A stretch of 64,000 bases of DNA from Psychrilyobacter atlanticus DSM 19335 (GTDB lineage: Bacteria > Fusobacteriota > Fusobacteriia > Fusobacteriales > Fusobacteriaceae): positions 2,037,159 to 2,101,158 of the forward strand of contig NZ_KE384547.1 of assembly GCF_000426625.1 (NCBI RefSeq), read 5' to 3'. The translations under genes were made by a program, and so were the position numbers. The notes beneath the pieces are model-generated. The model was not told the origin of the DNA. It saw only the letters and a list, made by a program, of their open reading frames with translations, and did no database searches. Below are positions 46,569 to 50,083 of the stretch, in pieces (the stretch's first letter is position 1; each line of letters starts with the position of its first letter).

Positions 46569-48041
46569 CTAAATATTTGCCAGCATTTCCTCTAGACATT
46601 GTCTCGCTACTATTCTATCGTCAAAATCAAATGTTTCTTCTCCGACAGTTTGTGTAACCTCATGCCCTTTCCCTGCTATTAATACAATATCATCTTTTTT
46701 TGCCATCATTATTGCTTTTTTTATAGCTTCCCCTCTATCTGGGATTATTTCATACTTTTCAGTTTCTTTTTTATTATTTTTATCTAAAAAAGCTTTTTCT
46801 ATATCCGACATTATACTTTCAAGAGGTTCTGTTCTTGGGTTGTCTGATGATAATATCGTATAGTCACTGAGTCTTGCAGAGGCTTCTCCCATTCCAAATC
46901 TTTTATCTCTACCTTTGTTTCCACCACACCCGAATATTGTTATTATCCTGCCATTCTTAATTTCATTGAGTGCTCCGAGTATATTACTTAGACCATCCCC
47001 TGTATGGGCATAATCTACTATAACACTAAAGTCTTGTCCACAGTTCACACCTTCAAATCTCCCTGGAACTCCTTCTATTTTTTTTATTTTATTAATGGTT
47101 TCTTCTACATCAAAACCTAATTTGATACAGATACCTAATCCCGTTAATATATTTAACATATTAAATTTACCCAATAAATTAGTCTTTACTATATATTCTT
47201 TATTGTCGTAAGTTATAGATAATTTTTGACTTGAATTAGTTATCTCTATAGTTTTCCCTTTTAGGTCACCTACATTTTCACCAAAACCAAGTCCACCAAA
47301 TTCATCATACAGCTTCTTTCCAAATTTATCTCCAATATTATATACTCCATTACTTTTATCTTTCAATTTTAAGAATAATTTTCTCTTTGCATTGAAATAG
47401 CCATCTACCGTTTTGTGGAAATCTAAATGATCTATCGTTAAATTAGTAAACCCAGCTACATCAAAATTTAACATTGCTACCCTTCCCATTTCAAGAGCGT
47501 GGGAACTCACTTCCATAATTAAATAATTTATATTCTTTTCAATAGATTCCTTACACATTTTTACCAGATCCATAGATTCCGGAGTCGTATTTGGAGCAGG
47601 AATAACCTTATTTCCTATCTTATACTCTACCGTCCCTATCCTAGCTACTTCTATATCACCCATTAATTTTTCCAGTATATATGTTGTTGTTGTTTTTCCA
47701 TTGGTTCCTGTGATTCCTATTACAGTCATTTTATTTTGCGGCCAATCATAAAAATTAGAAGCTATAACCCCTAAATGCAGCCTAAGATCTTCCACCAAGA
47801 TATATGTAATCTCTTTATTTAATATCTCAACTTCTTTAGAAACCAATATACATCTAGCACCTAATGATACAGCCTTTTCTATATAGTCATGCCCATCAAC
47901 AGTGCTTCCATCTAGTGCAGCGAATATATTTCCTTCCACTATTTTTCTCGAGTCATACTCCATTCCGGTAAACTCCATCTCTTTCCCGGAGTTTAATATT
48001 TTATATTCAATATTTTTTAATATTTTTTCTATATCTTTCAT
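46569..48041 (-). CDS. murE: UDP-MurNAc-dipeptide:diamino acid ligase MurE
   Basis: Adds the third amino acid to the peptidoglycan stem peptide using ATP. 490 residues with the ATP loop VIGITGTNGKTTTTYIL, the TTPESMDL and EVSSHAL substrate segments, VDYAHTGDGLSN, and the diamino-acid recognition motif DNPRTEPLESI. DNPR is the form found in meso-DAP enzymes; fusobacteria commonly use meso-lanthionine, which is similar in shape, so the residue added here is uncertain. AGGAGG precedes the ATG. Confidence 0.95.
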   Translation of the reverse strand: MKDIEKILKNIEYKILNSGKEMEFTGMEYDSRKIVEGNIFAALDGSTVDGHDYIEKAVSLGARCILVSKEVEILNKEITYILVEDLRLHLGVIASNFYDWPQNKMTVIGITGTNGKTTTTYILEKLMGDIEVARIGTVEYKIGNKVIPAPNTTPESMDLVKMCKESIEKNINYLIMEVSSHALEMGRVAMLNFDVAGFTNLTIDHLDFHKTVDGYFNAKRKLFLKLKDKSNGVYNIGDKFGKKLYDEFGGLGFGENVGDLKGKTIEITNSSQKLSITYDNKEYIVKTNLLGKFNMLNILTGLGICIKLGFDVEETINKIKKIEGVPGRFEGVNCGQDFSVIVDYAHTGDGLSNILGALNEIKNGRIITIFGCGGNKGRDKRFGMGEASARLSDYTILSSDNPRTEPLESIMSDIEKAFLDKNNKKETEKYEIIPDRGEAIKKAIMMAKKDDIVLIAGKGHEVTQTVGEETFDFDDRIVARQCLEEMLANI

Positions 48042-48126: not shown

Positions 48127-49083
48127 TTAAATATTTATTTTTTGCCCTATATTCAACTGAACTGCTTTTTCATATATAGTTTTTGCAACATATAGATCTA
48201 AAAGAGCCATCCCTACTGATTTGAAAAAGACAGTTTCATCAATTTTTTTTTCTTTATCCTTTAGAAAAGAACCTATAGTGTGGATTTGTTCCTCTTTAAT
48301 TAGACCTTCTGCTAATGGATAACAAAGGTCTCCTGATTCTTCCTTTGCAAAATAAGTGTCTGTATAGATCTTATCTACAAGAGAATATATATCCTTTGGA
48401 AGCTCCCTCATAGTAGGTTTATATGATCCTATTGCAATAAAAGTTTTACCTTTTAGAAGCTCAGCTTTGTTAGGCAAAACAGGCTTATCTGAGCTGGTAG
48501 CAGTAACCACAATATCAGTCCCCTCTAAAACCTCTTCTACAGAACTGCAAATAACTACCTCTACATCGATCTTCTTTTTTAAACGATTAGAAAAATCTTT
48601 TAATTTTTCTATATTCCGTCCATAAATTTTCACTTTTTTTATAGGTCTGACTTTTGATATAAACAATATCTGCTGAAAACCTTGGACTCCTGTTCCTATA
48701 AGTCCTAAAGTAGAGGAGTTTATTTCAGAAAGATACTTAGCTCCTACTCCTCCCACTGCCCCAGTTCTAACTTCTGTCAGCGTTTTTCCATCTATCATTG
48801 CTAGTGGTTCTCCAGTATTAGGATCATTTAAAGTCATAAAACCATCTATAACCGGCTTGCCTACTTGACTATTTTCAGGAAAGATCGTCAAAGATTTTGT
48901 CCCAAAAATTTCATCTGTAAAACAAGGCATATAGAGAAGTGTATTTTCTTTGTTATTTACATGGATCCTATCTGGCATATCAAAATTATTATCTTCATAA
49001 GCTAAAAATGCATTTTCTACACTATCCATAACTTCTTCTAAAGAAATTATCTTTTCAATTGCTGCTCTATTTAAAAAAATCAT
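48127..49083 (-). CDS. Ornithine cyclodeaminase / mu-crystallin family protein
   Basis: 318 residues. The NAD-binding part has STLGLIGTGVQGFQQILFIS and VKIYGRNIEKL; the catalytic part has RVTE-like TEVRTGAVGGVGAKYL and DGFMTLNDPNTGEPLAMIDG. Family members include ornithine cyclodeaminase, alanine dehydrogenase and ketimine reductases; I cannot choose between them. A hairpin lies between the Shine-Dalgarno sequence and the ATG. It stands alone between murE and the RluA-family gene. Confidence 0.87.
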   Translation of the reverse strand: MIFLNRAAIEKIISLEEVMDSVENAFLAYEDNNFDMPDRIHVNNKENTLLYMPCFTDEIFGTKSLTIFPENSQVGKPVIDGFMTLNDPNTGEPLAMIDGKTLTEVRTGAVGGVGAKYLSEINSSTLGLIGTGVQGFQQILFISKVRPIKKVKIYGRNIEKLKDFSNRLKKKIDVEVVICSSVEEVLEGTDIVVTATSSDKPVLPNKAELLKGKTFIAIGSYKPTMRELPKDIYSLVDKIYTDTYFAKEESGDLCYPLAEGLIKEEQIHTIGSFLKDKEKKIDETVFFKSVGMALLDLYVAKTIYEKAVQLNIGQKINI

Positions 49084-49123
49084 ATTTCTGTATGATAAAT
49101 ATTAGTTTTTATCATACCCTCCT
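49084..49123 (-). promoter_or_regulatory. Hairpin between Shine-Dalgarno sequence and start codon
   Basis: Read on the minus strand: AGAGGAGGG, then TATGATAAA (49108-49116), an 8-nt loop, its exact complement TTTATCATA (49091-49099), then CAGAAAT and the ATG at 49083. Linear spacing from GGAGG is far too long, but with the hairpin folded the effective spacing is about seven bases. Confidence 0.65.
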
Positions 49124-49219
49124 CTTCATTATAGATATAAATTCCTAATCTATTACTCATATTTTTGGCAGTTAAATTCTATAGATACCAAATATTTTTT
49201 TTATTTTAACCCTCACTAT

Positions 49220-50083
49220 TTAAATTTTCTTCAGAAAATTTTCAGGTATCTCTCTCTCTATCTCGATGTTATACTTAGGTATATTTACATAGTATGAATA
49301 AAGAAACATCATACTTTCCTTGCTGATCCCATATTTCATATCTCCTACAATAGGCATCTTCTCATTGGCTAACTGAACTCTCAACTGATGAGTTCTTCCT
49401 GTTCCAAGGAGTCCTTCCAGCAGAGTTCTTTCTTTTCCATTTTTAATTGTCTTGAAGTAACTGATACTCTCCTTAGCACCCTCTTCATACTCATCTAATT
49501 CTATCACCTTTGTTTCTGTCTTCTTCAGATAAGATTTAATTGTAAATTTATTTTTTTTCGGTTTCCCGTCTACCAGGATATAATATTTTTTCTCTACCCT
49601 TCTCTCTCTGATCTCTTCCGATAATTCTCTTACTACCGGTAAGGTCTTAGCTCCTATAATCATCCCTGAAGTAGCCTTATCTATCCTGTTTACAAAGGTA
49701 AAATTCATATTATTTGTATATGCTTTTAACATCTCTGACAATCCATAGTCATGTCCACTTCCCTTGTGCATTACCATATTTGGTTTTTTATCAAATATCA
49801 GTACCCTCTCATCTTCATACACAATTCCGGCTTTTAGATATTTTATTTCCTTCTCTGTCAATTCTATAAATGATTTTTGCACAGTAGCTCCCTCACGTAA
49901 AAATACATTTACTACGTCACCTACCTGGAGCCTGTATTTTCCTTCTACTTTTTTCCCATTTACCTTGATCTTCTTGGTTCTAAGATATTTAAATATCTCT
50001 CCTAATTTTACTCCCTCATATTTTTTTCTGACAAACTTATCCACTCTAGTATCTTTGTATTCCTCTGTTATCTTATAATCCAT
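49220..50083 (-). CDS. RluA-family 23S rRNA pseudouridine synthase
   Basis: 287 residues. An N-terminal S4 RNA-binding domain (TRVDKFVRKKYEGVKLGEIF, KIKVNGKKVEGKYRLQVGD) precedes the synthase domain, with catalytic Asp in FVNRIDKATSGMII and GLLGTGRTHQLRVQLA near the end. It isomerises uridines in 23S rRNA, like RluC or RluD; the exact target is not clear. GAGGTGG precedes the ATG. Confidence 0.9.
   Translation of the reverse strand: MDYKITEEYKDTRVDKFVRKKYEGVKLGEIFKYLRTKKIKVNGKKVEGKYRLQVGDVVNVFLREGATVQKSFIELTEKEIKYLKAGIVYEDERVLIFDKKPNMVMHKGSGHDYGLSEMLKAYTNNMNFTFVNRIDKATSGMIIGAKTLPVVRELSEEIRERRVEKKYYILVDGKPKKNKFTIKSYLKKTETKVIELDEYEEGAKESISYFKTIKNGKERTLLEGLLGTGRTHQLRVQLANEKMPIVGDMKYGISKESMMFLYSYYVNIPKYNIEIEREIPENFLKKI

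Follow-up and report, generated by a model that had tools for sequence, protein, structure and literature searches.

A hairpin between the Shine-Dalgarno sequence and the start codon in Psychrilyobacter atlanticus, a candidate split ribosome-binding site probably left by the end of a mobile element

Introduction

To our knowledge, split initiation sites are known only from a few phage genes. In thrS of Escherichia coli, a hairpin lies upstream of the Shine-Dalgarno (SD) sequence, not between the SD and the AUG. The ribosome accommodates this long hairpin within the binding site and does not unfold it, according to the available excerpts of PMC3936740. In phage T4, as given in the part of PMC3014915 at hand, hairpins shorten the distance from SD to AUG from 27 to 11 nt in gene 25 and from 22 to 5 nt in gene 38. 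A leader motif found before varied genes of Firmicutes and Fusobacteria, the trpB motif (SRC-39-1), is described in the excerpts of PMC11109978. Among mobile elements, circles of the IS110 family rebuild a promoter across their joined ends, and IS621 has a CT core (PMC11208160, in excerpt). The accessible passages of PMC11208160 and PMC11187229 make no mention of an SD target for IS110, and the open-licence literature, as far as its accessible text goes, yielded no description of SD-targeting insertion elements or of a family of hairpins flush with the SD.

The locus analyzed here lies in a 64,000-nt stretch of the P. atlanticus DSM 19335 genome (contig NZ_KE384547.1), referred to as the window. 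Its genome, G000, comprises 3.54 Mb in 3 contigs. Pfam was applied to four window genes and to the IS110 domains, and NCBIfam to the four window genes. Genes outside the window (guaA, adk, rfbD, CoaBC, SecD, alaS, etc.) carry names that we presume from reading their translations by eye. Distances and promoter elements were judged against the usual SD spacing and promoter consensus.

Results

Architecture of the Site

The features of the locus were as follows.

46569-48041, minus strand: murE, downstream and co-directional
48127-49083, minus strand: OCD/mu-crystallin (ornithine cyclodeaminase-like) gene, 318 aa
49081-49083, minus strand: start codon ATG of the OCD/mu-crystallin gene
49084-49089, minus strand: residual spacer AGAAAT from hairpin to ATG, 6 nt
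49087-49210, minus strand: leader of about 125 nt, edges approximate, in G000 and G007, absent from G002
49090-49099, minus strand: hairpin 3' arm TTTATCATAC, its complement containing TATGAT
49100-49107, minus strand: loop AACTAATA, 8 nt
49108-49117, minus strand: hairpin 5' arm GTATGATAAA, abutting the SD
49118-49123, minus strand: SD sequence AGGAGG
49220-50083, minus strand: pseudouridine synthase gene, upstream and co-directional, its stop just ahead of the leader

The minus strand thus reads AGGAGG, a 10-bp hairpin, AGAAAT and ATG, with the hairpin starting at the base after GGAGG. The preliminary description had placed a hairpin between the SD and the start codon, and the minus-strand sequence bears this out. 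Its perfect stem also stands, at 10 bp instead of 9 bp since the outer G-C pair had been omitted, and its short spacer measures 6 nt instead of seven bases. The SD is strong and too far from the gene, with 34 nt from GGAGG to ATG in linear sequence and 6 nt from the end of the stem. The OCD/mu-crystallin protein matched PF02423 (E 6e-64), and because the match to the family begins at residue 3 of the protein, the annotated ATG start is taken to be right. Folding of 121 nt around the site, performed on the plus strand, gave a z of -3.1, with 2 of 200 shuffles equally good; the sense strand of the leader folded at -9.5 kcal/mol with the identical 10 bp.

The leader also holds an open frame of 26 codons (49160-49080, minus strand) that overlaps the start codon by ATGA; it was rejected as a real gene, given that indels shift its frame in G007. 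Separately, part of the window loop (49101-49105) can pair with 49145-49149 (ATTAG/CTAAT, minus strand). By eye, hairpin loops in the genus of the window (g1) may likewise pair about 20-25 nt upstream of the SD, a possible pseudoknot around it (L057, with TATATAGG/CCTATATA, and L058, L064, L190, L191, L193, L196, and L197). Such pairing was not seen, again by eye, in L060 or in the other genera inspected.

Recurrence Across Genomes

The pattern TATGATAAA-N4-12-TTTATCATA occurred a single time in the 3.5-Mb window genome, and the main proof that the site is not a product of chance is its recurrence elsewhere. Across 61 genomes of the family, GGAGGGTATGRT-N6-24-AYCAT matched 14 times, in 10 genomes, and its reversed form 4 times. 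Twelve of the 14 led into a correctly placed ORF of 60 aa or longer; L053 fell within coding sequence, and L064 had a start codon at the right distance with a short or broken frame. A covariance model built from 13 sequences (R1) matched 70 of 96 Fusobacteriales genomes at E<=1, a threshold that allows about one chance match per genome; among the matches listed, 83 were below 0.01, the model's own sequences included, where about one was expected. Of 30 R1 loci displayed, L073, L083, and L090 were cut at contig ends and left out of the judgement, and the 27 readable ones all had SD, hairpin and start codon in order (L092 with a non-ATG start only).

Beyond the family, the pattern GGAGNGTATGATA-N0-28-TATCATACA, which does not contain the ATG, was found at 67 places among 84,980 species genomes. 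By record title, 6 belonged to Fusobacteria and 61 to Clostridia-type Firmicutes, the latter titled Clostridia, Clostridium, Lachnospiraceae, Clostridiaceae or as single named Firmicutes such as Floccifex porci. At 66 of the 67 places, some of which are near-identical orthologues, the start codon opened an ORF of at least 40 aa or one running off the locus. A second covariance model of 50 sequences (R2) matched all 18 chosen genomes, with 1-13 matches each, and a looser pattern gave 24 matches, and its reversed control 0, in 12 genomes chosen for holding an exact match. The SD and hairpin pattern had no match in viral contigs. The site thus recurs in many genomes of Fusobacteriales and Clostridia-type Firmicutes, contrary to the earlier view that such an arrangement is rare in chromosomal genes, and its target genes are unrelated and differ from species to species.

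This last property bears on whether the site is a cis-regulatory RNA, i.e., a riboswitch, thermosensor or protein operator in which the hairpin or a pseudoknot gates the SD. The conserved stem sequence and the pairing between loop and upstream bases seen by eye at several sites of the window's genus would suit such an RNA. Nevertheless, the target genes are neither related nor conserved between species, the loop is free in length and sequence (3-25 nt, one of 42), and the upstream pairing was not encountered in the other genera inspected. No Rfam family fitted at the gathering score: 13 Fusobacterial loci gave no match, 18 further loci none at the motif, and the window region none at E<=1. A regulatory RNA is therefore judged improbable, and nothing was seen in favor of control by temperature, ions or a binding protein, as had been suggested earlier.

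Geometry and Covariation

Among 78 rows aligned by the covariance models, 76 had a hairpin of at least 5 bp and 68 a start codon; the stem ended mostly 7-10 nt before the start (range 3-12), and the SD lay 28-49 nt before it. The 67 pattern places gave a similar picture, with 7-11 nt from stem end to start in 66 and linear SD-ATG distances of 28-51 nt. Covariation was assessed on 48 hairpins picked by hand for stems that could be anchored to a common set of pairs. The share of paired cells in these was 96.0% (shuffles, 88.3%), and 30 cells differed from the commonest pair on both sides (shuffles, 9.0), with none of 2000 shuffles as high on either measure; since the selection, the models and the patterns favor TATGATA stems, these figures show that pairing is kept rather than how freely the sequence may vary. 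For the 13-sequence family alignment, 1 of 500 shuffles attained the covariation score, and slid controls scored lower. Conservation of the stem with compensatory changes, the check proposed in the preliminary description, was thus found in the 48 selected hairpins. Its reading that the hairpin bridges an over-long SD-ATG distance gains support from these compensatory stems and from a stem-end distance of mostly 6-11 nt, as opposed to 28-51 nt in linear sequence. The hairpin would then bring a distant SD to its ATG.

Two other roles for the stem were weighed against the same set of sites. The stem ATG might be the start of a small ORF ahead of the gene, MIKTNIYHTEI*, with coupling through the ATGA overlap; in the window, this ORF overlaps the start codon by 4 nt. 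However, the frame of the stem ATG relative to the gene was spread 23/23/20 over 66 sites, with the ATGA overlap in 5 only; a 2-nt indel puts the G007 orthologue out of frame, some stems have no ATG (L200, L075, and L234), and the stem ATG is very close to GGAGG. A coupled ORF is hence very improbable, and use of the stem ATG as an alternative start, raised previously, is unlikely on the same frame counts. The perfect palindrome with its spacer could also be a DNA operator for a transcription factor, yet in nearly all sites it occupies the mRNA-sense side between SD and ATG, before unrelated genes. When searched without an SD in 24 genomes, TATGATA-N-TATCATA occurred 148 times and its reversed form 83 times, no more than a mild enrichment. 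Of the readings considered, an operator has the smallest probability, and a palindrome that inserts randomly or is scattered was rejected on the same mild enrichment.

The claim was also narrowed in sequence. Hairpins of any sequence flush with an SD were counted before ORFs of at least 100 aa in three genomes, each sampled over 400 kb. With Watson-Crick pairs and a minimum of 6 bp, the counts were 3, 2, and 4, against 7, 3, and 3 for mirror repeats; with 8 bp and G-U allowed, they were 2, 2, and 4, against 1, 0, and 0 in controls without G-U. Because they were not clearly above the mirror control, a general rule of SD-flush hairpins was rejected and the bridging claim is confined to the TATGAT-type stem. 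SD-flush hairpins of unrelated sequence do occur before an ATG at L309 and L291 (both G102) and L231 (G097), exemplified by AGGAGT[ACGTCCTACAAAGATTGTAGGGCGT]TTTTTAAAGATG; these could be older diverged cases or chance. Repeated palindromes of the form TATGATAGGAAATTC-N-GAATTTCCTATCATA at several places in Konateibacter (G105:C7 and C6) were taken for putative transcription terminators.

Gain of the Hairpin at the SD

The OCD protein matched in 11 of the 61 genomes, and a related-locus search with it gave no match. In G007 (protein 95% identical) the hairpin is kept, with one A-U changed to G-U and a loop 2 nt longer. In G002 (90% identical) the whole leader of about 125 nt is missing, and AATAGTGAGGAG-ATATAT-ATG forms an ordinary ribosome-binding site; the junction reads GAGGAG|ATATATATG, i.e., AATAGTGAGGAG followed by ATATATATG. 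It had been proposed that a relative lacking the hairpin but with normal spacing would speak against bridging. Such a relative exists in G002, and we read it the other way, as favoring bridging, because the point at which the hairpin came or went coincides with the end of the SD, and the spacer left there is normal.

The CoaBC gene repeats this pattern. In G000 and G007 it reads AAAAGGAG|ATATATC(A/G)ATG without a hairpin, and G002 is similar; in G006 it reads AAAAGGAG|hairpin|ATATATCTATG, in full AAAGGAG-GGTATGATA...TATCATACAA-ATATATCTATG, and G003 is alike. The hairpin is absent from the more distant G001. Taken together, the CoaBC and OCD junctions indicate that the hairpin is an insertion directly after GGAG, with the old spacer retained.

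When the leader DNA was compared with 8 genomes of the genus, its 3' part (SD and hairpin) was found before unrelated genes. Scattered through the window's genus are copies of a repeat about 70 nt long, AAATATTTATAGG...SD...hairpin...CATACAAG, which precede genes of unrelated kinds and carry no transposase (L190, L191, L193, L196, L197, L058, L064, and L057); the repeat resembles a miniature element or a solo end.

IS110-Family Elements Ending in an SD and Hairpin

In genus g6, the SD and hairpin GAAAGGAGGTTGTATNGATAAATATTTTATGTATTTATCATACAAG form the terminus of an element of 1.1-1.6 kb whose transposase, of the IS110 family, is encoded on the other strand. The domains PF01548 (DEDD_Tnp_IS110) and PF02371 (Transposase_20) were present in the linked elements (e.g., L347-L350, L355, L357, and L361), the domain evidence coming partly from fragments of one element. 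IS110 ends with SD and hairpin were seen in six genomes of two phyla, namely G012, G024, G101 (Floccifex porci), G020, G075, and G093, the last three found via a profile built from IS110 proteins. All 11 such ends lay 7-11 nt before an ATG.

Both ends were visible in 7 copies, and in all 7 the left flank ended in GGAG, the host stopping at AAGGAG, AAAGGAG or ATAGGAG and the left end of the element beginning AC(C/A)A(A/G)CTAT. Removing the element in silico from three copies left an SD, a 4-7-nt spacer and an ATG. The sole empty site seen directly is at guaA in G024, AATAAGGAG|AAAATGAATG, i.e., AATAAGGAG-AAAATGA-ATG, where G012 has the element. When the ends were joined in silico, TTGAC(A/T)-N16-18-TATGAT arose by sequence in all seven copies with both ends. 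This junction promoter scored 10-11 of 12 with the hairpin inside the element and 8-9 of 12 if the element ended before it. By these joined sequences, one arm of the hairpin in the IS110 relatives, with its TATGAT, is predicted to serve as the -10 box once the circle promoter forms (7/7), a double duty that would account for the conservation of TATGAT/ATCATA.

On the transposase strand, the noncoding end contained AGGAGA-N-TA-NN-GCC in 6 of 7 elements (five from the junction analysis plus L077 and L228). The AGGAGA stretch may be a guide for CTCCTT, the complement of the SD.

A survey of 24 PF02371 loci, present in 9 of 18 genomes, gave 7 with a TATGAT-type hairpin end and 1 (L375) with another SD-flush hairpin, and the three intact PF02371 copies of G007 and others had no SD-flush hairpin end. 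With 8 of 24 loci ending in an SD-flush hairpin before a gene, these elements are a subgroup. The end of L375 (G024:C1:916663), an IS110-type element, is a different 12-bp hairpin, ATAAGGAGG[ATATGTAATAATCATATTATTATATAT]AAAATAAAAATG, which suggests that other IS110 subgroups share the arrangement with another stem. In a draft genome of an uncultured Clostridium (the MAG G106), eight identical copies of SD and hairpin lay at contig ends (L237 and L339-L346); the 8 contigs represent 8 places, nearly all with a gene start, and break a few bases upstream of the SD and hairpin. These copies are probably a multi-copy element lost in assembly, and PF02371 was not found in this draft genome.

Origin of the Window's Copy

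The last 43-50 nt of the window leader were about 80% like the IS110 ends (E 0.006), and its left part resembled no left end of an IS seen here. The leader has no transposase, and PF02371 had no match in the window genome. As only its SD-hairpin end is alike, the copy is called a possible relic and not a member of IS110. At most solo sites no IS110 was found nearby. In the 67 pattern places the stem was followed mostly by AAA (43) rather than by an AG core, so the Clostridial sites may have another origin.

These observations lend some weight to another history, in which a plain split ribosome-binding site arose or spread as its own translation element and IS110 later captured or targeted it. 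Most solo sites without a nearby IS, the window genome without a PF02371 match and the dispersed 70-nt copies without transposases would all fit it, and IS621, which uses REP palindromes, provides a precedent for such targeting. Against it, the guaA relative without the element is also without the hairpin, the hairpin is nearly identical among the element copies of G012 and G024, and the TTGAC(A/T)/TATGAT promoter reaches its high score only with the hairpin inside the element. A related idea, in which the hairpin is the target rather than the end of the IS, was rejected; it gives the weaker junction promoter, and the empty guaA site contradicts it. Capture or targeting of a pre-existing split site is thus considered rather unlikely, and from the sequences compared we infer a mobile origin for the window site and most solo sites.

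Discussion

The site in the window is probably a split ribosome-binding site, most likely what remains of one end of a mobile element whose targets are ribosome-binding sites. This reading draws on what the sequences themselves display: the architecture, the geometry, the covariation, the gain at the GGAG junction and the IS110 end in six genomes. We further infer that the hairpin is required for translation, that the copy in the window descends from such an element and lost the rest of it by deletion, and that the SD is recognized by a bridge-RNA guide. In the proposed mechanism, the 30S subunit would pair with GGAGG while the 10-bp hairpin folds away the 34-nt linker, leaving the start codon at the usual effective distance of 6 nt. 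An IS110-type element would enter a native SD immediately behind its GGAG, at a core that reads AG, or CT on the strand of the transposase, and the native spacer and ATG would remain on the 3' side of the inserted element. The end of the element would supply its own SD and then a hairpin reaching the junction, so that the gene would read SD, folded hairpin, native spacer and ATG. If the element body were then lost, for instance through recombination of one GGAG copy with the other, a solo hairpin would remain.

We lean slightly toward the broader view that an RNA-guided IS110 lineage is programmed on the SD, that its end acts as a self-healing ribosome-binding site, and that with time it leaves solo hairpins, making split ribosome-binding sites a permanent component of gene starts in Fusobacteriales and some Clostridia. 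Such a lineage would insert into genes, essential ones among them, between the SD and the start codon; the insertion would be tolerated because the new SD and its flush hairpin keep the native spacing. If true, a mobile element can land in a ribosome-binding site, where a gene is most sensitive, without killing the gene, SD sequences join the list of IS110 targets, and split initiation sites are a natural feature of bacterial chromosomes. Annotation of start sites would also be affected, as SD finders that search a few bases upstream would miss such genes. The family of sites offers dozens of natural test cases for acceptance by the 30S subunit of a hairpin beside the SD helix.

Several known systems invite comparison. 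The trpB motif was rejected as an identity for the site on account of its different structure; in the excerpts of PMC11109978 it has two hairpins, the second terminator-like, and is not described between SD and AUG. The split ribosome-binding site of thrS is similar in that a hairpin within the site is accommodated, as stated in the accessible part of PMC3936740. With IS621 and IS110, as characterized in the excerpted text of PMC11208160, the linked elements share the DEDD_Tnp_IS110 and Transposase_20 domains, a long noncoding end, a CT core and a rebuilt junction promoter. Unlike IS621, their target is the SD before a start codon, and the end of the element bears an SD and hairpin. The closest likeness in arrangement is with T4 genes 25 and 38, in which, according to the part of PMC3014915 at hand, an over-long SD-AUG spacing is restored by an intervening hairpin. 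The T4 cases are single phage genes, whereas the hairpin described here abuts the SD directly, shares its stem sequence from site to site, is in part the end of a mobile element, and precedes many chromosomal genes that are unrelated and come from two phyla.
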